Shown here piece by piece: positions 1 through 22,973 of a stretch of 22,973 bases of DNA. Numbering within the stretch: the first letter of the stretch is position 1; each line of letters starts with the position of its first letter. The stretch is from the IMG/VR virus record IMGVR_UViG_3300025085_000199, positions 1 to 22,973 of that record. One strand, given 5' to 3'. The notes under the pieces were generated by a model that saw nothing but the letters and a program-made list of their open reading frames with translations, ran no database searches and was not told where the DNA came from. The translations under genes were made by a program, and so were the position numbers. The stretch comes from a virus.

Positions 1-1295
1 TAAAATTCATTTAATCCATCTGAATCATCTCTTAATCCATCTGCTTCATTTTCCCAATGCTCTACTACTCCAACATCGATTTTATCACCGTGGGGTCCTT
101 CGACAGGAGTTCCGGGCGTATCGAATACAGGTAATCCAAAAGAATCAATGAATCCCTCGTAGTTCCATTCCATAGGTATGAACAAACTATAGAGTCCACT
201 GCTAGTCTGTCCATTGCGGTTTCTTTTTGTAACGTCTGAGTCATTGTATAATTTTTTAAAGTTATCTCCACCTTTATCTAAAGCGTTTGATGTTGAACCC
301 ATCATACACTTTCCTATTATCCTACTTCCTAATCTCAGCGTTGTTTTTGTAACACGCCAATTGTTTAATATATTATCTGGTCTTTCCCATTTACCAGATT
401 CATCGTGAACAAGTAATCTTAACTTTTCACCATCATAAGAGTTATCTCCTGTATTCTTCCAGTCTATCGTTGTATCGAGCCCGTCGAGGTCTTTCCTCCC
501 GCTGGCGCTGGTTGTACTGGTGATGGACTTCCTTGTGAGTTTGGATGCTGGGACACGGTAGGCAAGCTCTGTCTTGGGACGGTCCATCCCGTCTTGTATT
601 GGCTTAAAGAAGAATGGATAGTGTGATGAAATTGGTACGACCTTGTCGGTAAACATCTTCTTTGCATCGCTACCAGTCTTCGATAAGATTCCGAATCTAG
701 CATCTGAAGTGAGTGTAGCTTGATTAACTGTCTCGCTGCTTGACATGAAACTAAACCCAGACCGTCTATTCTTAAGGTAGCATATTCCATAACATCTTTG
801 ATCTGCCTTGCATGCCTCCCAGAATATGAAGAATAATCTGTTTGCTTCTCGAAAGTCTGGCTTCCCAACATCAATCTTGGACCACTGCAAGTAATTGTAG
901 TGAGAGCCAGTGATATAAGTATCAACGCCTTTATTGCGGAACCAATATCCCTCTTCTCTCCTAGTAAATTCTTTATCAATGTACCCATACCAATCTTTTT
1001 TAAATTCTTCTGGATATGTTTGCCAGTCAAATATTGTTCTTATGTTTTTTAATTCTTTAGGGTAATCTGTCGCAACCCACTTATCGTGTTTGCTATACAC
1101 ATCTTCTGCAGGTGGTAAAGCAATCTTAAGATTTTGTATTTCATATATATCACCAATCTTACCTGTTTTACTTATAACAATTACATCATGTTCTTTGTTA
1201 TATCCATATTCCCAGTATTTCTTTTTATTCAGTCTATGTATCGTTGTACGCTTAATAGGTTCAATGATTTTATATAATGTTTGCTTATATGACAT
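1..1295 (-). CDS. Second terminase large subunit, T4/crAss-like lineage, partial at the left edge
   Basis: An open frame with no stop runs from an ATG at 1293-1295 to the left edge, giving 431 N-terminal residues. It reads as the ATPase half of a DNA-packaging motor. There is a degenerate Walker A-like segment KNRRSGFSF (about residues 175-183), a Walker B-like LRLLVHDES (292-300), and a coupling-type motif MMGSTSN (331-337). These are followed by NGQTSSGLYSLFIP (361-374), which I recognise from terminases of large T4-like and crAss-like phages. The long N-terminal region before the ATPase core also fits that lineage. The nuclease domain would lie beyond the left edge. The ATG overlaps the stop of the preceding gene (TAATG), implying translational coupling. 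Base composition is richer in G+C than the neighbours, peaking near 57% at 481-600. It is clearly different from the terminase at the right end. Family assignment is from recalled motifs, not a search. Confidence 0.8.
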   Translation of the reverse strand, partial: MSYKQTLYKIIEPIKRTTIHRLNKKKYWEYGYNKEHDVIVISKTGKIGDIYEIQNLKIALPPAEDVYSKHDKWVATDYPKELKNIRTIFDWQTYPEEFKKDWYGYIDKEFTRREEGYWFRNKGVDTYITGSHYNYLQWSKIDVGKPDFREANRLFFIFWEACKADQRCYGICYLKNRRSGFSFMSSSETVNQATLTSDARFGILSKTGSDAKKMFTDKVVPISSHYPFFFKPIQDGMDRPKTELAYRVPASKLTRKSITSTTSASGRKDLDGLDTTIDWKNTGDNSYDGEKLRLLVHDESGKWERPDNILNNWRVTKTTLRLGSRIIGKCMMGSTSNALDKGGDNFKKLYNDSDVTKRNRNGQTSSGLYSLFIPMEWNYEGFIDSFGLPVFDTPGTPVEGPHGDKIDVGVVEHWENEADGLRDDSDGLNEF

Positions 1296-1570
1296 TATTT
1301 AGACCTTTTTTCTGCAAAACCACTAAAAGCTTTTTCTTTATCCTGTGGTTTGTTTTCTAGCATTGCTTTTTCAGATTCAATCCTATTTAATATTTCAAAA
1401 GCATCAAAGATAGCTAACTTTTTAGTTGCTGCCGCGTTCTTTAATCTATCTGCTGCTAACTCATCTGCTGCATCTTCTACTATGATTTCTTCTTCAGCGA
1501 CTTTGATTAACTCTTGTACAGCTTTATAACCAGCTCGTATTATAGAGTTTTTCTGTTCCTTTGTGTTCAT
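1295..1570 (-). CDS. Small helical protein directly upstream of the second terminase
   Basis: A 91-residue, charged, Ala- and Glu-rich protein predicted to be almost entirely helical, with segments AADRLKNAAATKKLAIFDAF and RIESEKAMLENKPQDKEKAF and no membrane segment. The function is not recognised. Its place immediately 5' of a terminase large subunit gene, with stop and start overlapping as TAATG, is where a small terminase subunit or packaging accessory protein often sits, but no DNA-binding helix-turn-helix is obvious. The chosen ATG at 1570 makes it overlap the upstream GroES-like gene by 47 nt, which is long. The only later in-frame Met is far inside, so the start is probably right. The reading frame is real, judging from tight packing and charged composition; the role is inference. 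Confidence 0.7.
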   Translation of the reverse strand: MNTKEQKNSIIRAGYKAVQELIKVAEEEIIVEDAADELAADRLKNAAATKKLAIFDAFEILNRIESEKAMLENKPQDKEKAFSGFAEKRSK

Positions 1571-2108
1571 ACTTTATTGAAATATCATTTAATTTTATTC
1601 TATACAATCTTTTATCACCTACTATAAATTCAAATTCAGAGTATGGTGTAAATCCAACAAGCTCTCCTTTTTTTACAATATCAGAGCCGTCTGTATAAAC
1701 CACAATACCTTTTAAAGGTTCTTCTTTGTTTTCCCATTTATCTTCCGATTGTATGGGATTTACAAAACAGTAACCTGGCATTGCTACCCAGTCTTCATTT
1801 CTTTTGTACATGTACACTTGATCTAAATAACAAAAGTACATATCTTCTTTGAAATAATTACCACTATTTTTTTCAACTCCTCTAACATCGTAGTACCTTC
1901 TAAATATATTATGATGTACCATTACTTCATCGGACTCTTGTAGAGGCGTTTTAAACGCACCTGGGAGCGCTTTTACTATAGCTTCTTTACTTACATACCT
2001 ATGGTCGCTAATCGACGTGTTTAGGATTAAGTTTTTATCAGATACTTTTTTAGTGTTTTTGTAGCGGTTTTCTTTGGGTTGTATTATTAAAGCGTATGGA
2101 TTATTCAT
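1524..2108 (-). CDS. GroES-like co-chaperonin candidate (T4 gp31 analogue)
   Basis: A 194-residue soluble protein. The centre, LQESDEVMVHHNIFRRYYDV (about residues 57-76), looks like the GroES strand 'GDeVlv' followed by the His-Asn-containing insertion typical of phage co-chaperonins. The segment MPGYCFVNPI and the C-terminal KKGELVGFTPYSEFEF then RLYRIKLNDISIKY match the end of the GroES beta barrel (normally 'GDkVlf...yaG.evei...yliirEeDIla'). It is about twice the length of bacterial GroES (about 97 aa), as phage versions with extra loops can be. Such proteins cap host GroEL to fold the phage capsid protein. It lies in a tight minus-strand cluster just before a terminase gene. A barrel protein of another family is the main alternative. 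Confidence 0.5.
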   Translation of the reverse strand: MNNPYALIIQPKENRYKNTKKVSDKNLILNTSISDHRYVSKEAIVKALPGAFKTPLQESDEVMVHHNIFRRYYDVRGVEKNSGNYFKEDMYFCYLDQVYMYKRNEDWVAMPGYCFVNPIQSEDKWENKEEPLKGIVVYTDGSDIVKKGELVGFTPYSEFEFIVGDKRLYRIKLNDISIKYEHKGTEKLYNTSWL

Positions 2109-2331
2109 AATCTAAATTATACTCAATACTTATTCCCATGTTTTTATTAAAAGATTTCCAAAGCAACACTTCTTTATCCTTTTCTATATATATTTGGTAA
2201 TCGTGATCTTTCTCAAGTATATTCGTTATAATGTGGTTTCCATAAACCGCTTGTCCTATTTGATAGTGCATTGCATTATCTTTATAGTCTCTTCCTACAC
2301 TAATCTTCCTTATTAGTTTCATTTGATTCAA
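2101..2331 (-). CDS. Small unknown protein in the left cluster
   Basis: A 76-residue protein with a basic N-terminus (MNQMKLIRKI), a probable all-beta core (AVYGNHIITNILEKDHDYQI) and an acidic tail. No family is recognised. It overlaps the GroES-like gene by 8 nt and its own start lies 32 nt inside the preceding coiled-coil gene. An internal Met at residue 4 is an alternative start. Overlap with both neighbours on the same strand argues for a genuine operon member. The function is unknown. Confidence 0.6.
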   Translation of the reverse strand: MNQMKLIRKISVGRDYKDNAMHYQIGQAVYGNHIITNILEKDHDYQIYIEKDKEVLLWKSFNKNMGISIEYNLDYE

Positions 2332-2545
2332 TTTTATCTATCTCACCTGTTTCAATATTTATGTTGATTTTACCATAAGTATTTTCAAGGTCAGACTTCA
2401 TTGTATTTAATTGCATTTCTAATTGTGAGAAATTATGGGCTAGCTTGTGTCCATTGACTGTGTTTAACCCTATTTCATTTTGAGTTGTAGCAACTCTTTC
2501 TATTAAAGATTTTAAATCTTTGTGCTCTTTTTCTGTTAATTTCAT
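2300..2545 (-). CDS. Small coiled-coil protein at the head of the left cluster
   Basis: An 81-residue, charged, probably coiled-coil protein: residues 1-55 are helical with hydrophobic heptads (DLKSLIERV, LAHNFSQLEMQLNTMKSDLE). They are followed by YGKININIETGEI, an ending I recall from small conserved proteins of Bacteroidota phages. No catalytic or membrane feature is present. It is the first gene after the giant fibre genes, separated from them by 48 nt of AT-rich DNA in which I see no clear terminator. Role unknown; a scaffold or assembly accessory function is possible but only a guess. Confidence 0.65.
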   Translation of the reverse strand: MKLTEKEHKDLKSLIERVATTQNEIGLNTVNGHKLAHNFSQLEMQLNTMKSDLENTYGKININIETGEIDKIESNETNKED

Positions 2546-2593
2546 AAACTATTGAATTTGATTAAATTATATTATTATGTATATTACACGCTT

Positions 2594-5500
2594 TTAGTTT
2601 ATTTTGAATGCCATGTATATATAAGTTTGTGCGTTTTGATTAACCGCTGCACTTGAACCTAAACTAAACCCATCGCTACCGAATGCTGTTAAAGAATCAC
2701 TTGCAGTAGATTCAGTACTATCTGTATCCGGGAATAATCTTTTATTTACACCTCTTACGCTATCAAACAATCTCCAGGATTCTGCAGCTGATGTTTCTTT
2801 AATTAAAACCCAATCCGGTTGAAATCCAAGCCCTGTAATACTCTGTGTACTTCCATTACCAGTATAACTTCCAATCTTACTATAACCACTTACTGAATGG
2901 AAACAATAAGCAATGTAATCACCACCACTTGCATTTGAACCGCCACTATCACCGACTCCAATAGTTGTAGCAGATGGTACATTTCCACCCCATAAATTTG
3001 TAGCACTTCCTGCAGTTACTTTTGCAGCACTGCTGTTTAAAACCATATAATCAGATGCACTTCCTGTAATACTCATAACAGGTGTAGCCCAAACATACCA
3101 ATCAGAAGATGAATCAGTTCTTTTTACAAATACCATTTCCGGTGCTGCTGAAAGCCCGTGAGGTATTTTTGCAGTTGTAGCACCATCACCTTTATACTTA
3201 ACAATACTAAATCCTGCATTAGCATTTGCACTAACTATTGATTCTATTGATGTATTTTCATCTGTTCCAATATCAAGTGTATTGTTTTGTGAAGTAGTTT
3301 CATTATATAAATTAGTTACACTTGCTGCATCAAGTTCTCCATTATAGATTCTTACTTGGTCTAACTCACCACTATACCAATATGAGTTACTTGGTCTATT
3401 TCCTATAGCTATATTTGAAATTGTTTTTATAGTTCCATTATAATCTAAAGAACCTTTTAAATTACCATTTTCATATAATTTAATTTTACCATTTCCAAAA
3501 GTTGCTACGTGATGTTGCCACACTCCAGTTGTATAAGCATTTGTTACATCTAATTGAAAAGCAGTTTCACTTGTATTTTTAACACCAACTCTTAATCCTT
3601 GACTACCTGCTCCACCACCTGTGTGAATCATAAATACATCTGCTGCATTTGCTTCAAACAAAAAATCTATAGTAGTACCACTTGTGTTTGGTTTCCACCA
3701 CCAAGATATACTACAAGCACTACCTGTTCCTAAATCAGATGTAGCTATAGGTAAAGTGATCGTAGAACTTGAACCATTAAATTCTGCTGATTTATTAAAT
3801 TTACCACTTGCATTGTATGTAATATTAGATGTTGATGAGGCATTAAAATTGCCTGTTACATCATTTGTGTTATCTTCAAATTTATATATAGCAATAGCAT
3901 CTATATCTGTTGTGGTTTGAGTTATCGTAGGCTCATTGTCATCAGCTTTCCAAGCCCAAGAAACCCAATTTCTACTACTTTGATTTCCATCATTGCCTGT
4001 ACCAATAGTATAACTTGTATCATTGTACGACAATATTTGGTCAGTTGCTCCATATTGGGCAATCGTTGAATTAGGTCTAATAAAGTTTTTACCTCTAATT
4101 ATATCCCCTATATTGTGGTCACCTGAATCTCTTGACTTCCACCAAACCATACCAGGCTTAAAACCTGTTCCAATATCTCTTTGTGTACCACTACCAGTAT
4201 ATGTTACCGCATTAAAGCTATCCGCTAGTGTTGGTGCCGTAGTATCTGGATCTGCTGCAAAAGCTATGTAAATATATTTATCCCCATCAGCATTTACATA
4301 TCCTTCTGTTCCAGATGGTCTAAACCCATTGCTAAAAAAATCAAGTTGAGGTGCCGCATCTCCTGCACTTCCCGCCTCTGCACTTGTCTCATTAGCCATT
4401 AGATAAGAATATCTTGGATTTGTTGTGTTCCTTTTATTATCGTAAATCACCCAATTAGAAGTAGCATTATATCTTTTTACCATTATAAATGCCGGTTCAA
4501 ATCCGGTTTCAATAATAGGTCCGTTAGCGTTTCCGTTCCCTGTGTATGAGCCAATCTTTGAAAAGCCATCGACTGAATGAAAACAGTATGCTATCTGTCC
4601 TGTGCCAAGACCAACATCTCTTAATGTAAACACAGATGATGTAGGACTTGTACTATCAAACCTTGTTGTGCTTGAAGATGCAGCATTTGTATTTAAAGCT
4701 AATTTGTTACCATTTCCAGTTACTGATGAATAAACCTGCCAATCTGCTGTTGAATCTAAACCTTTATTTAAAATTAATTCAGGTGCAGCTGAAAGACCGT
4801 GTCCTACTGTATTTATAGCACCAGTTCCGTCCCATTTTACTATTGAAAATCCTAATGTCGGATTCGCTTGAACTGTTGATGTAATTGTTCCAGCGGTATT
4901 ACTAGATGTTGTTCCTCCATTTGCTTTAAAACACCAAGAAACATAGGTTTGTGAATTTTGGTTCATATCCCCCCAGGTTCCTATAGACCAACCATCATTA
5001 TTGAACGATGTTAAGGAATTTGCTTGAGCAGCTTCGGAATGTGTGTCAGTTAAATAAAGTCTTTTGGTTACCCCTCTTGTAGAATCAAATACATTTATTT
5101 TTTCAGCGTAGCTTCTTGATTTTGTTAATACTAAATCTGGTTTAAATCCTAAACTTGTAAATGATCTAGCAGTAGCATTACCTGTATAAGTAACTATTCC
5201 AAAATGTTCTGAGGGAAGAGGAGGTGTTACAGTTATACTGTATGCTCTTGCAGTTGATTGATTTTCATTATCTGTGGCTGTAACGGTAAAGTTACTTGTT
5301 GTTGAAGCACTAACATCTGGTGCTGTGCCTGTAATTGCCCCCGTCGATGTATTTAAAGAAACCCCCGAAGGTAAAGCGCCTGATGTTACAGCGTAAGTTA
5401 TTGCACCCCCATCTGGTTCTGTTGCCGCAGCTGAAACGTTTATTGTGGTGCCCGACTTAACACTCGCTAAGCTTCCTGCTGCGTTTGTAAATGCTGGTAC

Positions 5501-5881
5501 ACCATTATAAGATACATTTGTACTAGCACTTCCACCGTCTGTATTAGTTATTACTAAAGCTTGTGATCCTGCACTTTTAGCAGGTGTTGTAACTGTTAAC
5601 TGTGTAGCACTGTTTCTCGTTATTGAAGATGGTGTTGTACCACCTATAGTTACAGTTACGTTAGGATTAAAACCTCCACCGTTTATAACTAAGCTTTGGC
5701 CTCCTGCTGGATCTAAAGCCGTATCATCTCCCGGGTAATCAAAAGAAGAAAATGTAGGGTTTATAATAACTTCTCCCCATTCCATTGTACCATCACCTTT
5801 TGATTTAAGTACATTACCATCACTTCCGTTGTCTCCTCCTACCATATGAAGGTTACCTGATTTTAATCTAGTTTGTGCCAT
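2594..5881 (-). CDS. Giant modular tail-fibre/adhesin protein with IPT, Ig-like and LamG domains
   Basis: A 1095-residue protein, probably a virion adhesin binding a host surface glycan. The N-terminus (SGNLHMVGGDNGSDGNVLKS) matches the start seen in marine phage fibre proteins. Residues about 43-127 look like an IPT/TIG domain (LVINGGGFNPNVTVTIGG). Residues about 128-218 look like a putative-Ig domain (ALPSGVSLNTSTGAITGTAP). Then come repeated beta modules: A (from about 224, YTGN..GFKPDLVLTKSR), B (from about 344, GFSIVKWDGTG), C (from about 440, SKIGSYTGNG) and A' (from about 557). A LamG/concanavalin-like domain follows (about 659-864, AIYKFEDN...SISWWWKP), then B' (about 889) and C' (about 1000 to the end). 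The same order occurs in the neighbouring 1503-aa protein. The start ATG follows TTAATAA with no Shine-Dalgarno. No signal peptide or membrane segment is seen, as expected of a virion protein. Confidence 0.85.
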   Translation of the reverse strand: MAQTRLKSGNLHMVGGDNGSDGNVLKSKGDGTMEWGEVIINPTFSSFDYPGDDTALDPAGGQSLVINGGGFNPNVTVTIGGTTPSSITRNSATQLTVTTPAKSAGSQALVITNTDGGSASTNVSYNGVPAFTNAAGSLASVKSGTTINVSAAATEPDGGAITYAVTSGALPSGVSLNTSTGAITGTAPDVSASTTSNFTVTATDNENQSTARAYSITVTPPLPSEHFGIVTYTGNATARSFTSLGFKPDLVLTKSRSYAEKINVFDSTRGVTKRLYLTDTHSEAAQANSLTSFNNDGWSIGTWGDMNQNSQTYVSWCFKANGGTTSSNTAGTITSTVQANPTLGFSIVKWDGTGAINTVGHGLSAAPELILNKGLDSTADWQVYSSVTGNGNKLALNTNAASSSTTRFDSTSPTSSVFTLRDVGLGTGQIAYCFHSVDGFSKIGSYTGNGNANGPIIETGFEPAFIMVKRYNATSNWVIYDNKRNTTNPRYSYLMANETSAEAGSAGDAAPQLDFFSNGFRPSGTEGYVNADGDKYIYIAFAADPDTTAPTLADSFNAVTYTGSGTQRDIGTGFKPGMVWWKSRDSGDHNIGDIIRGKNFIRPNSTIAQYGATDQILSYNDTSYTIGTGNDGNQSSRNWVSWAWKADDNEPTITQTTTDIDAIAIYKFEDNTNDVTGNFNASSTSNITYNASGKFNKSAEFNGSSSTITLPIATSDLGTGSACSISWWWKPNTSGTTIDFLFEANAADVFMIHTGGGAGSQGLRVGVKNTSETAFQLDVTNAYTTGVWQHHVATFGNGKIKLYENGNLKGSLDYNGTIKTISNIAIGNRPSNSYWYSGELDQVRIYNGELDAASVTNLYNETTSQNNTLDIGTDENTSIESIVSANANAGFSIVKYKGDGATTAKIPHGLSAAPEMVFVKRTDSSSDWYVWATPVMSITGSASDYMVLNSSAAKVTAGSATNLWGGNVPSATTIGVGDSGGSNASGGDYIAYCFHSVSGYSKIGSYTGNGSTQSITGLGFQPDWVLIKETSAAESWRLFDSVRGVNKRLFPDTDSTESTASDSLTAFGSDGFSLGSSAAVNQNAQTYIYMAFKIN
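2821..2871 (-). repeat. Copy 1 of the fibre repeat encoding SYTGNGSTQSITGLGF
   Basis: The coding strand reads a near-identical peptide to two copies inside the neighbouring gene (about 6990-7039 and 7950-8000). Nucleotide identity is high enough to suggest recent duplication or gene conversion. It is the start of module C' of the 1095-aa protein. Confidence 0.7.
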
Positions 5882-5894
5882 TTATTAATTTATT

Positions 5895-8800
5895 TTAACT
5901 GTGTACATAAGTTCCACTTCCTGTATATTTTATTATTGTATGATTTCCATCTGTTGTAACTGTCGGTGAACCTGTTGTTGTTCCTGAATATTCAGATGTA
6001 AGTAACCTTAATATTACTACACCAGATCCTCCAGCTCCTGAATATCCACCATCATAAGTAGTTCCACCTCCACCACCTCCGGTATTTGCTGTACCAGACC
6101 CACCTGTATTAAGATTTCCAGCACCGTCACCTCCACCACCATTACCACCGGTACCTCTTGCACTATGATTCGTAAAAGATGAACCACCACCTCCACCAGC
6201 ATAAGCTACTGAAGAACCTGTAATTTCAACTGCTAATCCTGCACCACCGTTTCCACCACCACTTCCTGAACCATTATTTCCAATAGCTGAAGCACCACCA
6301 CCTCCAGCACCACCATAGTCTGGTGCGTTTTGTCCTCCTCCATCTCCTCCATTGTAACCTTGATTTGCAGTTCCAACACCTTTAGAAGAGGCTGAACCAC
6401 CACCACCACCAGAACCACCATCAGAGCCGTCTATGTGTGCGCCTGTTGGTTGATGATATATACCTCCACCACCTCCCCCAGTAGATGATATTGTTGTTAA
6501 TCCACTTGCTGCTATTGAAGATACTGCTCCATTGTTTCCTGCAGTTGTATTGTAAGTTGTACCTGCTCCACCTGCACCTATTGTAATTGTATATGTTCCT
6601 GCTGATAAAGTTATATCACTTTCAGCAGATGCACCACCACCTGATGTATTACCATAAGATGTACGAAACCCTCCGGCTCCACCACCACCTCCGTGTCTGT
6701 TACCACCTGAACCTCCTCCTGCAATAACAAGGAATGACATATTACCTGTTAAAGGTAAAGGCGTTGGGTTCATTTTAAATGCCATATATACGTAAGTGTC
6801 CCCATTTCTGTTTTCTCCGGCACCTGAACCTAATGTAAACCCATCACTGTCGAACGAAGTTACTCCTGTATCTGCATATTCTGCTGCATTTAAATTTGCA
6901 TTTACTGTAACAGAATCTCCTCTTACTGAATCAAATATAAACCAATTATCAGCACTTGTTCTGCCTTTAGTCATTACAAAGTCTGGCTTAAATCCAAGAC
7001 CAGTAATACTTTGCGTACTTCCATTACCTGTATAACTTGAAAACTTGCTATATCCACTTACTGAATGAAAAACATAAGATATATACTCACCACCACTTGT
7101 ATTTACAGTTCCATCCGAACCTATTTGATTTGTTGTGGAACCTATTGTTTTATATGCATTAGCGTCTGTTCCTCCTGTTCCACTACTATTTAAATACATA
7201 TAATTACTTGCTGGCAAAGAACTAAACCAAACTAACCAACCTTCAGAGGCATCTAATCTTTTTGTAATTATAAGATTAGGCGATGATGATAATCCGTGAC
7301 CATACGTGCCTGTACTCCCTGTTCCTGTGTATTTTACAATACTTAATCCATTTGCAGTATTTGTATTTGTTATACTTGGTATTGTCCCATCAATATTAGA
7401 TTGCCAAGTATTACCTGCTTTCCAAGCCCAAGCTACATAGTTTGTTCCTGTGTTATTATAGTTACCTGCATTTGTACCAAATTGTAAATATCCATCACCT
7501 ACACCTGTGAAATATTGTGATTCATTTACTTCTGCAGCAATATCACTTGATTTTAATGTCTGCCCAATACCTCTGGCAGCATCGTGTAATTGATGAGTAT
7601 TTGTTGTACTTCTTGATTTAATCCAAACCAAATCAGGTCTGAAGCCTAAACCTTCAACTTTTTGATTTGCACCTGTTCCAGTATATGTTAATATTTTAAA
7701 GCTATCCGCTAATGTTGTGTTAATTGGTATGTTTTTAGCTATTGCCCAGTAGATATAAGTTGAACCACTTGCATTTCTGTCTGCATCATTATCTTCTAAT
7801 TTAAAACCATCAGATTCAAAAGATAATCTTAAACCACTAAATTCTGAATTATCAGTATTTGCTCTTAACATTGGTTGTCCTCTACGAGAATCATAAATAT
7901 TCCAATTTCCTGTGCCACTACTTCTTTTTAACATTACAAAGTCAGGTTTAAAACCTAACCCAGTAATACTTTGCGTGCTTCCATTCCCGCTATAACTTCC
8001 AAATTTCTGGTAACCTGTTACATCGTGGAAACAATAAGCGATAAAGTCTTCATTATTTACATTAACATCATTATCAGTGCCTATGCTAAATGATGTTGAT
8101 GATGGTGCAGTATCATTCCAAAAAGCACTTGATGTTCCTTCCGCATTGTCCCTATTTAAATAAATAACTTTTGTTGCACCTACACTTGTATGATAAACCG
8201 CCCAATGAGCATTTCCGCTATGAGTGTTAGAAAGGTTTTTCACTAAAATCATATTAGGGGCAGCTGATAACCCATGAGGAACTGTCGTTGCACTACCTGT
8301 TCCTTCATATTTGACAATTGAGAAACCTGCATTTGCATTTGCACTAACAATTGATTGCGTACCAGCAACATAAGTCATTCCTAAACTTAAACTATTGTTT
8401 TGTGCTGCTGTTTCTGCATATAGTGTTGCTACATTAGAAGCTGTCAATGCTTTATCATAAATTCTAACTTGATCCATTCTACCGTCCGTTCTCTGACCCC
8501 CATTATCAGCCCTATACATTAAGCCATAATCAGATGAATGATTACTTGCGTTGCCTGTATAAGAATTAGTTCCTTCTAATGAACCATTTATGTAAAGAGC
8601 CATACCATTTGTAGTATCAAATGTTATAACAATATGATACCAAGTACTTGCAGATAAAGTTGTTGATGAATTTATATCGTAAGCTGTATTAACTAAATTT
8701 CTTCTATATTTTACTGAATAATTACCCCTTAATCTAACATTAGTATCGTGGTTATAAAACAACATATCTTCATCTTGTAATGTATCAAGATATACCCAAC

Positions 8801-10889: not shown

Positions 10890-10891
10890 AA

Positions 10892-12621: not shown

Positions 12622-13114
12622 CTTGAATTTTATCTAAATTAAATGAGTGATATGTAGAATATCCTTTTCCCTCTTTTCTTTTTGCTTGATACACTAATTT
12701 TCGGTTATTACCCTTTACATAAGAAACATGAATCCAAGCAGGGTTGTTATCATCTCCTAACTCCCAAATAAGTTTATCAAAATCTAATTCGTTTTTAATT
12801 ATATAAAATAATTCACAATTAGAAACACCTGTTGCATCTAAATCAATTGCACACCCATCTATATGTTGTGATGTTGTTGCAGCACCTGAAATAGCATTAT
12901 TTAATTTCTCTGACCTAAAAAAGCTATTTACAATGATTGGTTCACCTACTTTTTCTCTTAAAGGTTCAAATAGTTCTTTAGCTAAAATTTTCATATTTGC
13001 TAATTGTTCATCGTTAGGTGTGTTTTTAATTTTTAATTTTTTAGCAGTTGCAGAACCAAATGCTTCTTTCCAAGATATATTTGTACTAAAGTTTTCTTTT
13101 TTAGATTTTGCCAT
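12614..13114 (-). CDS. Endolysin-type M15 peptidase
   Basis: I choose the ATG at 13112-13114 (MAKSKKENFS), 4 nt after the stop of the tail-completion gene; a longer frame to 13207 would overlap that gene heavily. This gives 166 residues. The fold signature of the M15 (VanY/L-Ala-D-Glu endopeptidase-like) zinc peptidases is present. SFFRSEKLNNAISGA (64-78) carries the conserved Arg. SQHIDGCAIDLD (82-93) has His84 and Asp91 as zinc ligands. WIHVSY (127-132) has His129 as the third ligand. It would cleave peptidoglycan cross-links at the end of infection. No signal peptide is present, so it needs the adjacent holin for export. M15 enzymes can also be virion-borne, but the pairing with a holin favours lysis. 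Confidence 0.88.
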   Translation of the reverse strand: MAKSKKENFSTNISWKEAFGSATAKKLKIKNTPNDEQLANMKILAKELFEPLREKVGEPIIVNSFFRSEKLNNAISGAATTSQHIDGCAIDLDATGVSNCELFYIIKNELDFDKLIWELGDDNNPAWIHVSYVKGNNRKLVYQAKRKEGKGYSTYHSFNLDKIQDA

Positions 13115-13118
13115 AATT

Positions 13119-13556
13119 TTAATTTTGTTGAACTCTGTTTGCAATGTCAATGATTGCTCTGTAATAAGTTTTTTCATCATCATTTTCTTCACTATAAGCA
13201 ACCCCATTTATGTTACTTGTGAATACATTAAAATTGTTTGATGTTAGGTCAAAGTAATCTGTCGTAGATGTCTTAACTAACTCTAAAATAGATTCTACGA
13301 TGTCATTCACTTGTAATTCTCCACCATCATCAGAAAAGAAAGCAGTAACGACCTCAATTCTTGTAATACATTCTACTATAAAATCACTTTGATTTTGATT
13401 TGTTTGTGCAGTATCTGCTGAATAAACAATTATATAAGGTTCGCTTTGAGTAGATGGAACACGATTATATACAGGTACATTTGCACCACCATAACTTACA
13501 TTCCCATTTAAAAGTGTAAATATCTTTTGTCTTATAAATCGTATTGGTTCTTTCAT
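13119..13556 (-). CDS. Tail completion protein (DUF3168-like, HK97 gp17 type)
   Basis: A 145-residue protein. The N-terminus (KEPIRFIRQKIFTLLNG, then VPVYNRVPSTQSEPYIIVYS) and the following strand-rich core match the family of tail terminator/completion proteins found after the gp10-like gene in HK97-type head-tail modules. QSDFIVECITRIEVVTAF and VNDIVESILELV are part of this core. It would cap the tail tube and join it to the head connector. Its start overlaps the upstream gp10-like gene by 4 nt. Normally the major tail protein gene would follow; here an endolysin does. Confidence 0.75.
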   Translation of the reverse strand: MKEPIRFIRQKIFTLLNGNVSYGGANVPVYNRVPSTQSEPYIIVYSADTAQTNQNQSDFIVECITRIEVVTAFFSDDGGELQVNDIVESILELVKTSTTDYFDLTSNNFNVFTSNINGVAYSEENDDEKTYYRAIIDIANRVQQN

Positions 13557-13900
13557 CTTAAACTTCTTTTAATTGCATTGTTTAAATCTAACATTAACCT
13601 TTTTAAGCCTGTGTTTATTTTACCAAAGAAATAAGGTTGTGCTTTTTGAAATCTTGTACCAAATTCAAGAAACCCTGAATATGGTGCTTTAGATTCTATT
13701 GATTTGTCTTTTGCATTATAAACAACATTGTTTCTTAAATTACCTGTATCAACTGGAATAGGTGGCAATTTTATATCTCTTGATATTAATAATCCATTTT
13801 TATCTATTATCATATCAACACCTTTTGCACCAAGAGCATCTAACTTGTCAAACATTTTATTGACTTTACGAAGATCAGATTTATTAACTCTTATTTCCAT
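13553..13900 (-). CDS. HK97 gp10-like head-tail joining protein
   Basis: A 115-residue protein showing the recognisable gp10-family core PVDTGNLRNNVVY (about residues 49-61) followed by YSGFLEFGTRFQKAQPYFFG (74-93). This is the 'vDTGrLrnSi...ya.yvEfGT....qPfm' pattern. The N-terminal helix (LRKVNKMFDKLDALG) is also typical. The protein belongs to the head-tail interface set and indicates a long-tailed (siphovirus or myovirus) morphology. It starts on the last base of the head-closure gene's stop (position 13900), so translation is probably coupled. Confidence 0.88.
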   Translation of the reverse strand: MEIRVNKSDLRKVNKMFDKLDALGAKGVDMIIDKNGLLISRDIKLPPIPVDTGNLRNNVVYNAKDKSIESKAPYSGFLEFGTRFQKAQPYFFGKINTGLKRLMLDLNNAIKRSLR

Positions 13901-14226
13901 TACTCCCTCTTTGTTGCCGTTATCGTTGTATAATACTTGTAATTACTATCAAACATATTATTTATTTGGAACTGTCCGCTTTCATTTTCTATTTCTAACA
14001 AATCTGTTGTGTTTATATCATCAGCAGTTTTTTTCCTAACAGTAAGTTCAATTACAAGGTTTCGATCTCTTTTACCATTTTTTGTGGCAATATCACCACC
14101 AGTATAATTAACCATTGCCCAAATTGTTGTTTGTGTTGCAAGGGTAGATGAAAAACCACCAAACCCATCAGCAGATTTAGATTGTCTTTTTATTAAAACC
14201 CTTGTGTCTAATTTTCCTGAATTCAT
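13900..14226 (-). CDS. Head closure protein (SPP1 gp16 / HK97 head-tail adaptor type)
   Basis: A 108-residue protein, small and beta-rich: GKLDTRVLIKRQSKSADGFG at the N-terminus, then TIWAMVNYTGGDI. Later come ELTVRKKTADDINTTDLLEI and YKYYTTITATKRE at the C-terminus. This is the classic layout of head-tail adaptors ('rv.i.....t.DgfGg....w.....waki....g.E'). It closes the portal channel after packaging. The gene shares one base with both neighbours (14226 and 13900), a strongly coupled operon. Confidence 0.85.
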   Translation of the reverse strand: MNSGKLDTRVLIKRQSKSADGFGGFSSTLATQTTIWAMVNYTGGDIATKNGKRDRNLVIELTVRKKTADDINTTDLLEIENESGQFQINNMFDSNYKYYTTITATKRE

Positions 14227-14771
14227 TATATAAACATTGTTTTATATGAATTTAATATATCTTTTACACTTGTAGGTAAATCTGTTACAGTTTGACCAAT
14301 AACAAAATCTGCTCTATTATCATACAAAGTAGAAACAAGTTGTAGGTTAGCTTGTATTAAAAAGCTATCATTCATACCTGCCGTTGTGTAACTCACTATG
14401 ACTTCTTTTGATGGTAAACTATTAAGTTCAATGATTGTATCATCAAGCCCATACTCCGTAAATGCAGTTGTTGCAGTTCCCTCAACAGTTATTGATTGAA
14501 TTGATGCTATGGGCGAAAATGGTAAAACAAACCTTTCATCAACACTCGCTAAATACAATTTCCTTGTTTTAGCCGCTATGTCTTTCGTAATGTAGTTTTC
14601 AATTATAATCCTTGCCTGTGTTATCATTTGACCTATTAGAGTATCATCAGCAGTTGTATCAACCCTTAAATATGATTTAGCGGTTGCCGTATTGATTATT
14701 TCTGATCCTGTCGTAGCAGTAATTTTAATTTGTGTATGAAAACGATTTAAAGGATTGCTATAATATGTCAT
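14226..14771 (-). CDS. Head-tail connector protein (HK97 gp6 / gp15 type)
   Basis: A 181-residue protein. The core AKSYLRVDTTADDTLIGQMI then TQARIIIENYITKDIAAKTR is the helical start of the gp6-like connector family ('k.hLRvd...dD.lI..li.aAr..iE.yt.r'). It is followed by the family's usual beta segment (PFSPIASIQSITV) and C-terminal helices (ANLQLVSTLYDNRAD). It forms the ring just below the portal. Its ATG overlaps the stop of the small upstream frame (TAATG). In canonical modules it directly follows the capsid gene; here about 1.35 kb of other genes intervene. Confidence 0.88.
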   Translation of the reverse strand: MTYYSNPLNRFHTQIKITATTGSEIINTATAKSYLRVDTTADDTLIGQMITQARIIIENYITKDIAAKTRKLYLASVDERFVLPFSPIASIQSITVEGTATTAFTEYGLDDTIIELNSLPSKEVIVSYTTAGMNDSFLIQANLQLVSTLYDNRADFVIGQTVTDLPTSVKDILNSYKTMFI

Positions 14772-16040: not shown

Positions 16041-16073
16041 TTTTACATTATTTAATATTCTTTAATGTTTAGG

Positions 16074-16102: not shown

Positions 16103-16123
16103 AATTAATTACTACTCGATTAC

Positions 16124-17341
16124 TTATGCAGTTTCAAGTGCTGTTTTAGCAGTGCTAAACGTTCCTTGTACTATTGCATTTGGTTGGTAGTTAGTTAAAG
16201 CAACTCTTTCAGATACTTTAACAGTTACGAAACCATCTCTAAAGTTAGTAGAATCTTCTCTTGAGAATTCAACAGAAAGGTTTTCTCTAATCCAAAGTTG
16301 TGTCGCTTGGTTTAAATCTCCCACGAGGAATTTTCCTGCAGTAACTGCCGTATTTGCAACGACTGGCACTCCCATTATAGTTGGAACTAAACCTGAATAA
16401 ATTTGATTTCTCAAATACTCATTAGTAGTTGCCTTTAATAATGCGATTTTGTGCATATCAGTTGGGTTTACTAAAATACTACTTGCAGTATAGTTTGATA
16501 ATGCTAACTGGTTTAAAGCAGCTACAAGCACATCATACTCATTTGCTGATTCAACTGCATGGTAAAATGCACCAGTATCAGCAGTTACAAAAGCAGTACC
16601 ATCAGTAAATAATCCATCAAGATTAGGTGCTGAACCATCTCCGTTAAGGATTTCATTATCTTCAATTGCTAAAACTTTACCAGGAACTCTTGCAGAAAGG
16701 TAAGATGATAATTGTGGTGTATCAGCTAACATTTCTTCTGTAATTCTCATGAAAGTACCAATTTTTTCAACATTTACTGAAGTTGCAGTAATGTCAAAAT
16801 CTGATGCAGGAAGGGTTGAACCTTGAGCCGTAGCAGCTGCACCATCATCATAAGCAGATTCTTTTGGGAATCTAATTGTTTGTGCATTTGTGCTTCCATT
16901 AGGAATTAAATTTCTAATGTTTACGCTTCTTGATGGATCGTATTTAATCCCAGGAACAACTGTTTCACCTGCAACAACTCCTGTGTAGGAATTTGCCATA
17001 GTCATATCCCCTGCTTTCATCTCAAACTTTGCAGCGTTTGAGTTACCTTTTAATAATCCTTCAATTACACCTTCATTGATGTTTTTAATTAAAGAACTTT
17101 TAAAGTTAGTTGGTTCATTTGAAGTAATTGCTTTTTTTTGTGCAACTTCAAAACTGTCCATTCTTTTTGTAGCATCATCGTGTTTCGCTAAAAACTCTTT
17201 GCTTAGGTTATCAATCTCACTTTTTAGTGAAGTTTCGACTTCTCCTTTAGCGTTATCTTTAGCTTGACCGAATGCTTTTTCAATTTTAGAATCAACCAAA
17301 TTTCCTATTTGATCTAATTCTTTTTTAATTTCATCGTTCAT
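16124..17341 (-). CDS. Major capsid protein, HK97 fold
   Basis: A 405-residue protein. Residues 1-105 are a charged helical delta/scaffold domain (EIKKELDQIGNLVDSKIEKA, FLAKHDDATKRMDSF). It is removed by the prohead protease in this family, probably near residues 100-110. The mature part begins about SYTGVVAGETVVP (118-130) and has the family's SVNIRNLIP strand. RITEEMLADTP marks the spine-helix region and AIEDNEILNGDG the later core; near the C-terminus is the P-domain strand IMGVPVVANTAV. It assembles the icosahedral shell. The gene directly follows the protease (3 nt) and ends in a strong terminator, as highly expressed capsid genes often do. The start ATG lies in an A-rich context. Confidence 0.95.
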   Translation of the reverse strand: MNDEIKKELDQIGNLVDSKIEKAFGQAKDNAKGEVETSLKSEIDNLSKEFLAKHDDATKRMDSFEVAQKKAITSNEPTNFKSSLIKNINEGVIEGLLKGNSNAAKFEMKAGDMTMANSYTGVVAGETVVPGIKYDPSRSVNIRNLIPNGSTNAQTIRFPKESAYDDGAAATAQGSTLPASDFDITATSVNVEKIGTFMRITEEMLADTPQLSSYLSARVPGKVLAIEDNEILNGDGSAPNLDGLFTDGTAFVTADTGAFYHAVESANEYDVLVAALNQLALSNYTASSILVNPTDMHKIALLKATTNEYLRNQIYSGLVPTIMGVPVVANTAVTAGKFLVGDLNQATQLWIRENLSVEFSREDSTNFRDGFVTVKVSERVALTNYQPNAIVQGTFSTAKTALETA

Positions 17342-17344
17342 TTT

Positions 17345-18046
17345 TTACGAATTTAATTTATTAAACAAATAATTATATATATCACTATTATCAGCTTTTA
17401 CCTGTGTCGGCTCTGTAACATCAATTTCAGTTGGCAAAGTGGCACTATCGTTAAAAATAGATTTTAGCTTAATGAGTTCTGCTTCGATAGCATAACCCAT
17501 ATTGTCAGAAATGTTACCCTTGCGAATTAATTTCACAAGTTTATCAAATCTTTTCAATACTTTTTCCTTATCTACATTTCCTTTTACATCTAATATCATC
17601 GCTTCATCATTTGCAGCAAGTGTAACGGCAGAAATCTCATAAAGTTTTACTTCCGTTAATTTTCTATTATATCCATCATCTACTCCCGCTTCTTTTTGTA
17701 GTGGTAATATACCAACGCTATTTTCGGTAATTACCCCTGCTTTCATAAGTTCTAATACATCAGTTCCAAGTTGAGTTTTAGGTATTTTTGCTTCAAACAT
17801 TAATCCTTTATCATCTTCATATAGGTTTACCATTTTACCTAAAGGTTGATCCATATTGTGTTGATATAAATACTTTACACGACTTCCATTCTCCATAATC
17901 GTTTTTGTATATGCACCTGGTGTAATTATATCACCATCGCTATCAACATTATTAAATACAGAACCATAACCTTTTACGATTCCACTCTTTTCATCGGCAT
18001 CAACTAATTCACCGATTGGACTTGACTTATATATTATATTTTCCAT
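17345..18046 (-). CDS. Prohead maturation protease, HK97/S78 family
   Basis: A 233-residue protein. The family blocks are visible: VKGYGSVFNNVDSDGDIITP then GAYTKTI (about residues 24-50), and YLYQHNMDQPLGK (about 59-71) with the catalytic His. VITENSVGILPL carries the nucleophilic Ser, and LYEISAVTLAANDEA follows near residue 135-150. It cleaves scaffold or delta domains during head maturation and also itself. The C-terminal third is charged helix, likely the autocleaved or scaffold-binding tail. It is encoded immediately before the capsid protein, the canonical order. Confidence 0.93.
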   Translation of the reverse strand: MENIIYKSSPIGELVDADEKSGIVKGYGSVFNNVDSDGDIITPGAYTKTIMENGSRVKYLYQHNMDQPLGKMVNLYEDDKGLMFEAKIPKTQLGTDVLELMKAGVITENSVGILPLQKEAGVDDGYNRKLTEVKLYEISAVTLAANDEAMILDVKGNVDKEKVLKRFDKLVKLIRKGNISDNMGYAIEAELIKLKSIFNDSATLPTEIDVTEPTQVKADNSDIYNYLFNKLNS

Positions 18047-18058
18047 TTTACAAAGATA

Positions 18059-18262: not shown

Positions 18263-18264
18263 AA

Positions 18265-19890
18265 TTATATTTTTGTTGGTGTAAACTGTCCAGTTTCTAA
18301 TAATTCATCTAATAAATCCATTGCTTCTTCAAAGAGTTTAGGAAAATATTTTTCCATCACTGGATTTCCATTGTATTTCCAGTCATACATATTCGCAAAG
18401 ACCTCTGCATAATCACCACCTTTTGTTTTTAAATAATAACCTTTCTTATGACCATATCCAAAGTTCTTCATTTTATTAATTGCACCAAAAAAATCGTTAG
18501 TCGACACAAAGTACCATCTCAATTTATTATATGGTATGTTTGGCATTAATTTTTTTAAGTTTTGTAAGGGTGTATAAGTTGAAACACCTCGATTAATACT
18601 TCTCGCTAAATTATCGCTTTGTAAAACTAATATTCCATTAGGATCAAGTTCTTTAAACATTTTTGACATTTGAGATGACAACCTCTTATTACTCATAAAC
18701 CTTTCTTTCCAATCGTTCATTTTGGCTTTAAATTTTGGGTGTGCTAAATATTCAGAACCTTGTCTATATGCTAATTTTCTTGTAGTATGTATTGAATGAC
18801 CTATTTCGTGAACAAGAACTCGACTTCCGTTACCAATAGTCCACCAATTATTTTTTACTTTTTTTAAACCCAAATTAACACTATTTTTGGTTGGGAGATA
18901 AAAGTTACTTGTTCTGTTTTTATTAAGTATAAAGTTTACAGGTTTTACAAAATTTCTTAAATATCCATCATCTTTTGGTAGTTCAAAACCTAATCTTTTT
19001 AATTCATCAATTTCTTTTGGATAAAAATTTGGTTTTCCTTCTTGCACCACTCTTTGCCTTGGAACTCTCACGGGAGTTGGTTCAATTCTTTGTGGAATAC
19101 TTCCCTCAATAATTGCTTCTTTTGGAAAAGGTGCATTTGTACATCTACAATTTATTACATTAGCAGCACTTCCTCTACTATCACCTGGATATGCTAATTC
19201 CTCACCACCCACTAAAAAGTTTTTATCCATATCGACTACTTGTCCATTTGCTTGAATATGATCTATTCTTGTTCTATTATCAAAAGTTGCAATCCATTCT
19301 TTTTGAAGATTCTCTTTTCCAAAAACATCGGTGGCACTTTGATTAGTAGCATAGTTCGCAGCATTAACACTTTCGGTTCTTACAATTCGTTTTGCATTTA
19401 CAACCGACATATCTTTAAACTTCTTTCTTAATATTCTACCCGCTTGTACCTCATTCATTGATTGAAAGTCGGGGTCTGCCATATATCTTTTTAGTGTTTT
19501 TGTTAATTCTTTTTTACGATTACCACCAACACTAACAACTCTTGTTCCCGCCACTTGACTACCTATGTATGCAAATTTTTGATTCCAAATATCCTCATAT
19601 TCAACATCAATATTTTTAGTAATGTATTTGTCAAAGTTTTGTGCATACCACCTGGCAAACTTATTACCAACCTCTTGATAAAGTTCAACATAAAGATTTA
19701 TTAAGTCGCTATTCTTGAATTTAGATTGTAGGTCAGGTATTTTTTTATTAGCTTTTAAAAACTCATCAATTATCTGATTATTTTCACTAACAAGATATTT
19801 TACCCATTTCTTATCTTGTTTAGCTTCTGCAATATCTAATTGATTAAGCCAATCTTTTTGATAATTTTTTTTGAATTTTTTAGTCAGCAT
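18265..19890 (-). CDS. MuF-type minor head protein fused to an HExxH metallopeptidase-like domain
   Basis: A 541-residue protein. The N-terminal half is a head morphogenesis (Mu gpF/SPP1 gp7) protein. AKRIVRTESVNAANYATNQS (166-185), FDNRTRIDHIQANGQVVDMD (203-222), LAYPGDSRGSA (232-242) and INCRC (246-250) are the MuF signature. After a Pro-rich linker (about 253-290), residues 300-541 form a second domain with HEIGHSIH (361-368) and a later acidic candidate ligand, GGDYAEVFANM (E496). This is the layout of a gluzincin-type zinc metallopeptidase. MuF proteins with C-terminal effector domains are known as phage polymorphic toxins. The gene overlaps the portal gene by 11 nt. The domain could act in the head, be injected with DNA, or process capsid proteins. 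Confidence 0.85.
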   Translation of the reverse strand: MLTKKFKKNYQKDWLNQLDIAEAKQDKKWVKYLVSENNQIIDEFLKANKKIPDLQSKFKNSDLINLYVELYQEVGNKFARWYAQNFDKYITKNIDVEYEDIWNQKFAYIGSQVAGTRVVSVGGNRKKELTKTLKRYMADPDFQSMNEVQAGRILRKKFKDMSVVNAKRIVRTESVNAANYATNQSATDVFGKENLQKEWIATFDNRTRIDHIQANGQVVDMDKNFLVGGEELAYPGDSRGSAANVINCRCTNAPFPKEAIIEGSIPQRIEPTPVRVPRQRVVQEGKPNFYPKEIDELKRLGFELPKDDGYLRNFVKPVNFILNKNRTSNFYLPTKNSVNLGLKKVKNNWWTIGNGSRVLVHEIGHSIHTTRKLAYRQGSEYLAHPKFKAKMNDWKERFMSNKRLSSQMSKMFKELDPNGILVLQSDNLARSINRGVSTYTPLQNLKKLMPNIPYNKLRWYFVSTNDFFGAINKMKNFGYGHKKGYYLKTKGGDYAEVFANMYDWKYNGNPVMEKYFPKLFEEAMDLLDELLETGQFTPTKI

Positions 19891-21784
19891 TTTGAGAAAT
19901 CTTTTTAGCCCAAGAAATCATTGCTTTACCACCCCAAAGATTATAAGCTACATACCCTTTGTCTTTATAAGGTTCGTTTCTATATTCTTCAGATATTTTT
20001 GCATTATCCTCGTGTCTTGCTAAAAAGCTATGAATTCTTTTTACAGTATCAAGTGATATTGATTCTCTATTAGCTAATTGATTTGCTCGTTTCCAACCAA
20101 CCTCTGTGCCACCTTTAACAACATCACGACCATATTTCTTTCTCCACTCTAACATTCTCTTTGCATTGTTAGTAGCACCTTGTGGATAATTATTATATGA
20201 ATTTTGTTTAGATGTATATTCGTTGTCGTTTGTCTTTAATTCGTTTCCAGTTATTCTTTCATATTCTTCGTGTGATGCACACGGCATATAAACCTTATTT
20301 CCATTATCATCGTGTGAATGAACACCTTGACAACCAATATCTTCTGCTCTTTCACTTGCTTCAACTCGAGTTGTATAAACATCTCTACGAACCTCTCTCT
20401 TAACATCAAGAAGTTCATTATAATCTACTTTAACACTTTTAAAGTCCTCGCTAATAACCTCATCTTGTAATGGTACAAGGTTCATTGGAATATAATAATC
20501 GTTAAGTTTTTCATTGTCAGATTCAACACCATAACTCATTGCTTGTCTTTTTTCGTTTGGAGTTAGCCACCACGCTTGACTCATTTGCCCAACCACTTTA
20601 TCCATTTCTTCTTGCATTTCAGAAATACTGGAGTAATCAAAATCAATGTATAGTTTCTCGCCATAAGCAGGAACTAACCATCTGTTTAACTCATCTTTGA
20701 TTTTATTAAGTTCAGGGATTACTGCATTTTGATACAATGTCTTTTTAGCTTCGATTACATTGTTGTATGTAGAAGATTCCGTGTTGTTTAAAAGAACGGC
20801 AGGTACAGAATAAATATTACATAAATCTTTAATACTTGCATTGTATTGTTCTATAAGAGATAAATCAGATGCAGACATTCCAAAGTTTATCCAAGATAGT
20901 TTCTTTGGTGTTATTACAATATCACCTGCACTGTTAGAGCCTTGATAGTTTTGTCTAAACTTCTCTTTTAATTGTTGTGCTTGTACTTCATTAATATCCC
21001 CCTCATCACTCATAAGCACACCTCTTGCGGTTTGATTCTGTAAATACTTCGCACCAGTTGTAACTGCTTCGTTATTTGTATCTAATGATCTTAAACCTGC
21101 TTTAAGTGGCGACATTCCATACAAATGACTACCAGTTCCATCATAATAAGGGTTAAAATCTTTTATATGGCAAATATCCTCTGCTGCCATTTGATATTGT
21201 CCGTTATAATCTAATGAGTATGATTTAACTGGGTCAAATATTCCACCACTATTAATTTCTACCTTTTGACTTGGTAATACATATAATTCTTTGAATTTAC
21301 CTTGATTAGCACCTGTATCAGGTTTTAAACCATAGATATATCGATTTCCAGTTAGTTTACCAAATGCAATTATTTCTTGAATCCAAGAATTGTATGATTG
21401 TGCAGGATTAGGTCTTGATAGTAATTCGTGCAATTCAGTATCTGCTACTTCTTCAAGAGCGTGTTTTCTTAATACCTCTGCTTTGTGTAACGCTGAACCA
21501 TTTGCAATACCACTTGTCATAGATTTATACTTCTTTAAATCATTCTCACTTTTTATTTCATATATCTGAAATGGAATAGTCGCTGCCGTTTTTGCAATTA
21601 GATTTACAATAGAATAAATTGTTGTGTTTTGTTGATACCCTTTTTCAATATATGTGTTATCGTTTTCAGGATTCCAAACAATACTGTTTCCTATGTAGTT
21701 ATATATCGCTTTATTAAACTCTACATTAGTTTGTTGAAAATTCTTTGATATGAGTTTCTGAAATCTTGATAAAATTGATGCCAT
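19880..21784 (-). CDS. Portal protein, HK97 family, with C-terminal extension
   Basis: A 634-residue protein, about 200 residues longer than a typical HK97 portal. Residues about 1-440 carry family features: YQQNTTIYSIVNLIAKTAAT then IPFQIYEI, LLSRPNPAQSYNSWIQEIIA, and FGKLTGNRYIYGLKP. QTARGVLMSDEGDINEVQAQ and VPAVLLNNTESSTYNNVIEA follow. The extension has a Cys/His-containing stretch GCQGVHSHDDNGNKVYMPCA (about 482-501). A final domain of about 105 residues, AKRMLEWRKKYGRDVVKGGT, then ANQLANRESISLDTVKRIHS and GYVAYNLWGGKAMISWAKK, is one I recall fused to other head proteins of Bacteroidota phages. It forms the dodecameric DNA channel. The gene is 30 nt after the terminase and overlaps the MuF gene by 11 nt. 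Confidence 0.93.
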   Translation of the reverse strand: MASILSRFQKLISKNFQQTNVEFNKAIYNYIGNSIVWNPENDNTYIEKGYQQNTTIYSIVNLIAKTAATIPFQIYEIKSENDLKKYKSMTSGIANGSALHKAEVLRKHALEEVADTELHELLSRPNPAQSYNSWIQEIIAFGKLTGNRYIYGLKPDTGANQGKFKELYVLPSQKVEINSGGIFDPVKSYSLDYNGQYQMAAEDICHIKDFNPYYDGTGSHLYGMSPLKAGLRSLDTNNEAVTTGAKYLQNQTARGVLMSDEGDINEVQAQQLKEKFRQNYQGSNSAGDIVITPKKLSWINFGMSASDLSLIEQYNASIKDLCNIYSVPAVLLNNTESSTYNNVIEAKKTLYQNAVIPELNKIKDELNRWLVPAYGEKLYIDFDYSSISEMQEEMDKVVGQMSQAWWLTPNEKRQAMSYGVESDNEKLNDYYIPMNLVPLQDEVISEDFKSVKVDYNELLDVKREVRRDVYTTRVEASERAEDIGCQGVHSHDDNGNKVYMPCASHEEYERITGNELKTNDNEYTSKQNSYNNYPQGATNNAKRMLEWRKKYGRDVVKGGTEVGWKRANQLANRESISLDTVKRIHSFLARHEDNAKISEEYRNEPYKDKGYVAYNLWGGKAMISWAKKISQNAD

Positions 21785-21814
21785 CGAATAACTTTTATTT
21801 TACAAAAATACTAA

Positions 21815-22973
21815 TTAAATTACAAAAAAGTTTTCTTTCTTACCAAAGGAGGAATAAACTGCATAACGAATAGAATCCATTAAATGATTTTCCTTGTCTT
21901 GTGGCTTATTTATTATTGTTCCATCTTTTAATTGTTCCCAATAATAGCTTTGATATTCTCGTAATATATTCTTTGATTCATTGCTTACATAAATATCAAA
22001 CTCTTTTAACTTAGATATTCCCGCATTTATACTTCCTTGCCCTTTTGTTGCAGGTTTTATATACAATCCCAATCTTCTCATCTCCTCAATAGATTTAGGT
22101 TCAGCAGAATCAGCGTAAGTAATTACCTCGCCATACCCTTTAGCTTTTAATATATCTACAATGTCGCTATTGGTTAAACCCTTTTGGTATAATATCTCAT
22201 GCAAATAAACCCTGTCATGCTTTTTAAAGACAAGAACACAAGCAGTTGGATCATTACTATACCCATAGTCAATTCCGACTATTCCCTCTACATCTAAATC
22301 AAATTCAGGAAACTCATCATAATCAATGAATGTCCAGTTGTTAAATATTTGTCTTGCACTAAAGATTGCTTTTAATCCCTCTCCATATACTCTCCAATAA
22401 TCAGGATCACGAAGTTTCATTCTTTCTATTTCATTGACCAGTTCTTTTGATAAGAAGTTGTTGTCCTTGTATGTTGTTACCCAAGTATCGCAATCATCTC
22501 TTGGAATTAGGTCATTATATATCCAGTGGATTGGATCTGAAGGATTAAAATCAACAATAACCATATCGGTTGTTCTCATATTGATTTGGCGAAAATCCTC
22601 TATGTTTAATTCATTGCCCTCATTTAAGAATGCAATGTTTCTTTTACGACCACGAATCTTTTGAGGTTCATCTACCGAAAGAAACTCAATAAGATGATTA
22701 TTATACTTAAAAGTATTATCGGCTTTGTTATGTACTCCTGAAAAATAGATGCCCGTTTCTTGTAGCACTATCATTATATCTCTCATTACAGAACCTCTTA
22801 ATGCAGGTAGTGTCTTACGGACAATAGATATGGTCAAAGGTTTCTTTGATGTTGTAATAAGATAAACCAGGTATTGACAAACGGCTACTGTTTTTCCTGA
22901 CCTTGTTCCTCCTTGATGGACTTTAAATCTTTTGTTTGATCTAATAAGGTCGTAGAATTGCCTATTGCATCTT
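21815..22973 (-). CDS. terL: Terminase large subunit, PBSX/HK97-module type, 5' end outside the window
   Basis: The frame is open to the right edge; 385 residues are visible and probably only a few N-terminal ones are missing. Translation upstream of 22837 gives FKVHQGGTRSGKTVAVCQYL, a clear Walker A (GGTRSGKT), so starting at 22837 would be wrong. IAFLNEGNEL is the Walker B region and VDFNPSDPIHWIY the coupling segment. The nuclease domain shows GIDYGYSNDPTACVLVF, then TYADSAEPKSIEEMRRLGL and ENHLMDSIRYAVY, the metal-binding acidic residues of the RNase H-like fold. It cuts concatemers and drives DNA into the prohead through the portal encoded next. Confidence 0.95.
   Translation of the reverse strand, partial: RCNRQFYDLIRSNKRFKVHQGGTRSGKTVAVCQYLVYLITTSKKPLTISIVRKTLPALRGSVMRDIMIVLQETGIYFSGVHNKADNTFKYNNHLIEFLSVDEPQKIRGRKRNIAFLNEGNELNIEDFRQINMRTTDMVIVDFNPSDPIHWIYNDLIPRDDCDTWVTTYKDNNFLSKELVNEIERMKLRDPDYWRVYGEGLKAIFSARQIFNNWTFIDYDEFPEFDLDVEGIVGIDYGYSNDPTACVLVFKKHDRVYLHEILYQKGLTNSDIVDILKAKGYGEVITYADSAEPKSIEEMRRLGLYIKPATKGQGSINAGISKLKEFDIYVSNESKNILREYQSYYWEQLKDGTIINKPQDKENHLMDSIRYAVYSSFGKKENFFVI

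Follow-up and report, generated by a model that had tools for sequence, protein, structure and literature searches.

A marine viral contig with two unrelated terminase large subunits is very probably an assembly chimera of two phages joined in a tail-fibre gene

The window analysed here, a linear contig of 22,973 bp that is an entire IMG/VR virus record with no further flanking sequence, is very probably chimeric: two marine phages appear to have been joined by the assembler inside a similar tail-fibre gene carried by both. The window is composed of sequence from two phages, with the junction in a fibre cassette that they have in common; that the join was made by an assembler and not by nature is what independent assemblies lead us to infer. 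The initial annotation was correct in seeing two terminase large subunits (TerLs) on one contig, and the most likely cause of this observation is an ordinary assembly artefact. Four explanations had been offered for it (abutting phages or prophages, a natural recombinant with a second set of head genes, a chimeric contig, or one phage with two packaging motors). The chimeric contig is the best supported of these, while the two-motor phage and the second head-gene set did not find support.

The proposed origin of the contig is as follows. The left part (1 to 9665) would derive from phage A, a marine podovirus-type phage with a genome of ~60-70 kb that is a distant relative of the Flavobacterium elemo phages. 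The right part (to 22973) would derive from phage B, an HK97/Terminase_3 siphovirus-type phage of 30-34 kb, certainly from 10852 and probably from 9666. Both phages carry a homologous cassette of a DUF7483 fibre, an assembly chaperone and a fibre-tip gene, with long identical stretches. In a mixed sample, the assembler would have crossed between the phages within this cassette, so that the resulting contig has a fibre gene that is hybrid but in frame, together with the packaging motors of both phages; each phage has one TerL.

Gene content and the two terminases

All main genes of the window are carried on the minus strand. Its features are listed below, with profile matches where found.

3..1295, minus strand: terminase large subunit of phage A; truncated at the contig end after 431 of 739 aa; phrog_6681 (8.2e-87)
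1295..1570, minus strand: 91-aa gene beside TerL, phage A; 57-100% identical and adjoining TerL in most A-type loci
1524..2108, minus strand: GroES-like co-chaperonin, phage A; phrog_13932 (1.6e-12); same site beside TerL in Elemovirus
2101..2331, minus strand: 76-aa gene, phage A; order with TerL and GroES kept in A-type loci
2300..2545, minus strand: 81-aa gene, phage A; 100% identical in G080, 97% in G088 (see below)
2594..5881, minus strand: fibre gene 1, phage A; TIG, He_PIG, three DUF7483 and Laminin_G_3 domains (DUF7483 9e-161, Pfam)
5895..10406, minus strand: hybrid fibre gene 2; 1503 aa, in frame; phrog_19943/24898
9600..9700, no strand: junction between A and non-A sequence, after 9665; adjoins a motif kept in A-type and B-type fibres alike, with exact runs of 22-27 nt at 9600-9627 in B-type and other fibres
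10410..10889, minus strand: tail fibre assembly-type protein, in the cassette common to A and B; phrog_4912 (0.0018)
10845..10921, no strand: 77 nt without a difference between A and the B side; L261 and L280, contigs of other assemblies, terminate within this stretch
10892..11662, minus strand: fibre-tip type protein, phage B; 100% identical in the separate contig L261, 56-90% in B genomes
12247..12621, minus strand: holin, phage B; phrog_3427 (1.7e-26)
12614..13207, minus strand: endolysin of M15 peptidase type, phage B; phrog_894 (2.6e-27)
13119..14771, minus strand: tail terminator, tail completion, head closure and head-tail adaptor, phage B; phrog_176, phrog_5, phrog_25, phrog_442
16124..17341, minus strand: HK97-type major capsid protein, phage B; phrog_10 (1.1e-52)
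17345..18046, minus strand: head maturation protease, phage B; phrog_80 (2.1e-53)
18265..19890, minus strand: 541-aa gene between portal and protease, phage B; position kept in B genomes
19880..21784, minus strand: portal protein, phage B; phrog_12 (6.2e-65)
21815..22972, minus strand: terminase large subunit of phage B; Terminase_3 (1.6e-20), Terminase_3C (6.9e-20), phrog_2 (7.8e-39)

The description of two unrelated TerLs, both on the minus strand, was borne out by the profile search that had been recommended as a check: the left translation matches the TerL family phrog_6681, the right one matches Terminase_3/3C and phrog_2, and no similarity between the two could be detected (BLASTP E 0.43). 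The left fragment lacks the C-terminal 308 aa, which fall beyond the contig end, but the protein is full-length in G080, an A-type record (739 aa, 28731-30950), where it matches phrog_6681 at 2.5e-161. No Pfam model matched the fragment, and a PDB sequence search with the left TerL returned nothing significant. Membership of the left protein in a non-terminase ATPase family had been named as a possible refutation; a non-terminase identity is ruled out by the phrog_6681 matches of both the fragment and the full G080 protein. The named relatives nearest to the left TerL are podoviruses of Flavobacteriia: the Flavobacterium elemo phages (Elemovirus, 37% identity, with a GroES-type gene adjoining TerL as in the window), Cellulophaga phi18:3/phi46:3 (36%) and phi38:1 (33%). 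The TerL of MW202828.1, likewise a phage with a phrog_6681 terminase, is 62% identical.

The right TerL comprises 385 aa, its N terminus being cut by the contig end (relatives have 394-399 aa). Its translation contains the Walker A motif GGTRSGKT, and both the ATPase domain PF04466 (74.0 bits, cut-off 23.2) and the RNase H-like nuclease domain PF17288 (72.4 bits, cut-off 26.7) were identified. No named isolate is close; the best matches are Bacteroides phages, at about 39% identity. GroES-like and HK97 head genes had been described as lying side by side. Both are indeed present in the window, but they are 14 kb apart (1524-2108 and 16124-17341), with the join between them.

Relatives of the two halves in other assemblies

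Each of the two TerLs, the two fibre genes and the fibre-tip gene was used to gather loci of relatives. In DNA comparisons, A-type loci match only the left end of the window, plus scattered matches to the fibre genes and a few weak ones to the lysis genes, and B-type loci match only 10.0-23 kb, plus fibre homology. The right TerL was found in none of 42 A-type records and the left TerL in none of 37 B-type records (positive controls matched, and many of the records are fragments). Both TerLs together were found in none of 27 fibre-match and control records and in neither of two named A relatives; no double case occurs among about 100 related records. In each A-type record of 61-72 kb, the left-type TerL occurs exactly once and the right type is absent. 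Searching the literature for two-TerL phages brought up no related case. A and B occur as separate contigs both in 3300025103 (G080 and L147) and in 3300025084 (L179 and L261).

The two halves of the window are near-identical to different, separately assembled genomes, neither of which has the other's TerL, which speaks against both the two-motor phage and the second head-gene set. On the left, G080 (IMGVR_UViG_3300025103_000045, 44,447 bp, from another metagenome) is 99.96% identical to the window over 1-9668, with four mismatches and no gaps; its TerL (phrog_6681 terminase) and its fibre gene 1 are both 100% identical. Past the junction, G080 has its own different fibre start, followed by an A-type chaperone and fibre genes, and a portal gene (phrog_6547) and virion structural genes of its own lie downstream of TerL. 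Ribonucleotide reductase is also encoded in G080. An independent 61-kb A-type record, G088, has a TerL-GroES block that is 96-97% identical and the same gene order as G080, and HK97 head genes are absent from it. We considered whether G080 might itself be the chimera. This was ruled out, as the A gene order on either side of the fibre region is the same in G088, which is free of HK97 genes. Because G088 agrees with G080, the latter represents the normal A arrangement and the window the odd one. Portal and structural genes follow TerL in the A-type relatives, and none of those examined whole carries an HK97/Terminase_3 head module.

On the right, identity to separately assembled B contigs is 97-99% over most of 10852-22973: 98% for L082 (15849-22973), 99% for L083 (17806-22973), L084 (17874-22973) and L147 (16670-22300), and 97% for L261 (10852-15878), including 1002 nt that are exactly identical. 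Five B-family records of 30-34 kb (G049, G052, G060, G072 and G076) have TerLs that are 85-97% identical to the right TerL. The order TerL, portal, protease, capsid, connectors, endolysin, holin, fibre tip, chaperone, fibre is the same in these B genomes and in the window. After the fibre, the B genomes continue with a major tail protein (phrog_1407), a tape measure protein and replication genes before returning to TerL. At this site the window instead has A genes, including GroES and TerL, and B's major tail and tape measure genes are absent.

Several of the B genes vary within the family. L105, L109, L115, L116 and L117 have major capsid proteins 88-94% identical to the window's, but the figure is only 53-55% for L091, L093, L100 and L138, whose TerLs are 95-97% identical to the right TerL. 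As the window's capsid allele is also present in the 98% identical contig L082, capsid genes seem to have been swapped naturally between members of the B family. The gene at 18265-19890 encodes 512-516 aa in G049 and G072 and 291-297 aa in G052, G060 and G076. In the 541-aa product, the additional C-terminal part contains a HEIGH motif, as in zinc metallopeptidases, and the protein is possibly a protease fused to a MuF-like head protein. Similarly, the portal has a C-terminal extension (about residues 530-631) that matches phrog_2859 and varies in length, the portals being 736 aa in G049, G052 and G072 and 538 aa in G060. The region between the capsid and connector genes (14992-16100) is AT-rich (about 25% GC), variable and poorly kept among B-type contigs; its 120-aa gene (14992-15354) is usually 52-63% identical, and 95% identical in L116.

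The junction and the shared fibre cassette

The fibre region had been named as the place to look for a break, and it is there, at 9665 within fibre gene 2, that the junction was found. The exact match to A in 9600-9665 stops abruptly at 9665. Across this point, DNA identity to A goes down from 100% to 32-50% and that to the B-type locus L315 goes up to 80-85%. The C-terminal part of the gene product, encoded up to 9665, is thus that of phage A, and the N-terminal ~246 aa are of B type, with 72% aa identity to L315 and to the B-family genome G072 as compared to 52% to A. Known B-type fibres share only about 20-27 nt exactly with A at 9600-9627. No near-identical B sequence was found to the left of 10852, and the comparison gave no exact overlap at 9665 long enough to explain the join. 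A 32-mer immediately right of the junction (9685-9716) matched no other contig in all of IMG/VR, neither a second copy of the junction nor an intact B copy. Composition gave no useful step at the junction (GC about 0.26-0.44, with strand skew of one sign throughout).

The junction lies in sequence common to both genomes. Over 10037-11209, A and the B side of the window are 82% identical, and the tail fibre assembly-type protein is 83% identical (aa) in A and 75-86% identical in most B-type genomes. Exact runs of at least 25 nt shared by A and the B side are confined to 10037-11142 (40, 84, 29, 45, 77, 50, 26 and 25 nt), with none in the 11.8 kb from 11143 to 22973. The B contigs L261 and L280, from other assemblies, end at 10852 and 10856, within the 77-nt run, as would be expected at an assembly-graph branch that the assembler cannot resolve.

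The cassette is also shared more widely. In the regions corresponding to 10037-11209 and 2594-10406 of the window, DNA identity is 82-94% among phages with unrelated head and packaging genes, namely the A type, the B type and G087 (only 30% identity between its TerL and the right TerL); exact runs reach 101 nt. Loci with the shared cassette include L159, L187, L262, L265, L296, L299 and L301. The cassette may be a receptor-binding module that passes between phages with the same hosts. Such close similarity across unrelated heads and motors suggests common hosts and recent exchange, and makes contigs prone to false joins.

Origin of the join

An assembler origin of the join is indicated by the co-occurrence of A and B together with contigs broken at the same place in other assemblies, by the near-identity of both halves to separate phages, and by the loss of B's tail genes. 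The main competing explanation in nature is a single crossover between A and B in their homologous fibre genes, giving a hybrid genome or cointegrate with both motors. This is consistent with a fibre cassette that is exchanged in nature, that both types carry with runs of up to 84 nt and 82% identity, and with a hybrid fibre gene that is intact and in frame with its domains in register. However, with halves 99.96% and 97-99% identical to separate phages, the recombinant would need to have arisen very recently while still reaching the abundance required for assembly. B's major tail and tape measure genes are missing from their usual site, and no second example was seen among the records compared. 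We therefore regard such a crossover as improbable. A genuine recombinant of a podovirus with an unrelated siphovirus, abundant in the sea and equipped with two unrelated motors and two head-gene sets, is more doubtful still.

Stable use of two packaging motors and two head-gene sets by a single phage lineage is highly improbable. Its sole support is the presence of both TerL genes on one contig, and it is contradicted by A-type records of up to 72 kb with one left-type TerL, by B-type records with the right type only, and by G080 and G088; in the former, the only B genes are those of the shared cassette and a distant M15 endolysin homologue. Two prophages side by side in a bacterial chromosome would likewise explain why one contig has two sets of phage genes, both oriented alike. 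This reading is effectively refuted: the halves meet within one fibre gene and are not separated by bacterial or integration genes, a search of 84,980 bacterial and archaeal genomes gave nothing close to the family of the right TerL (29-31% at best), and both phages are found as viral contigs. Rather less unlikely, though still not favoured, is a contig with three sources and two joins: A to 9665, the fibre start and chaperone of a third phage from 9666 to about 10,880, and then B. Consistent with this are the lack of any near-identical independent contig over 9666-10851, the ends of L261 and L280 at 10852-10856 and the similar cassettes of other phages such as G087, with its different TerL; the fibre start is nevertheless closest to a B-family genome, which makes B the simpler source. 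Such an arrangement would be a sub-case of the chimera, with the verdict unchanged.

With the assembly chimera as the preferred reading, the claim of two-motor phage biology should be dropped, and the window matters as a note on quality. As it stands, the record would place two TerLs, GroES and HK97 genes in one virus, and could mislead host prediction, taxonomy and surveys of "hybrid phages". Chimeric contigs are a known product of virome assembly, and in simulations they usually account for less than 2.5% of assembled datasets and, among contigs of at least 10 kb, for less than 5% (PMC5610896); this known rate also argues for an assembler origin here. The join in the window is deduced from independent assemblies. 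As in the chimeras of that study, two genomes are joined in the window where co-occurring viruses are highly similar.
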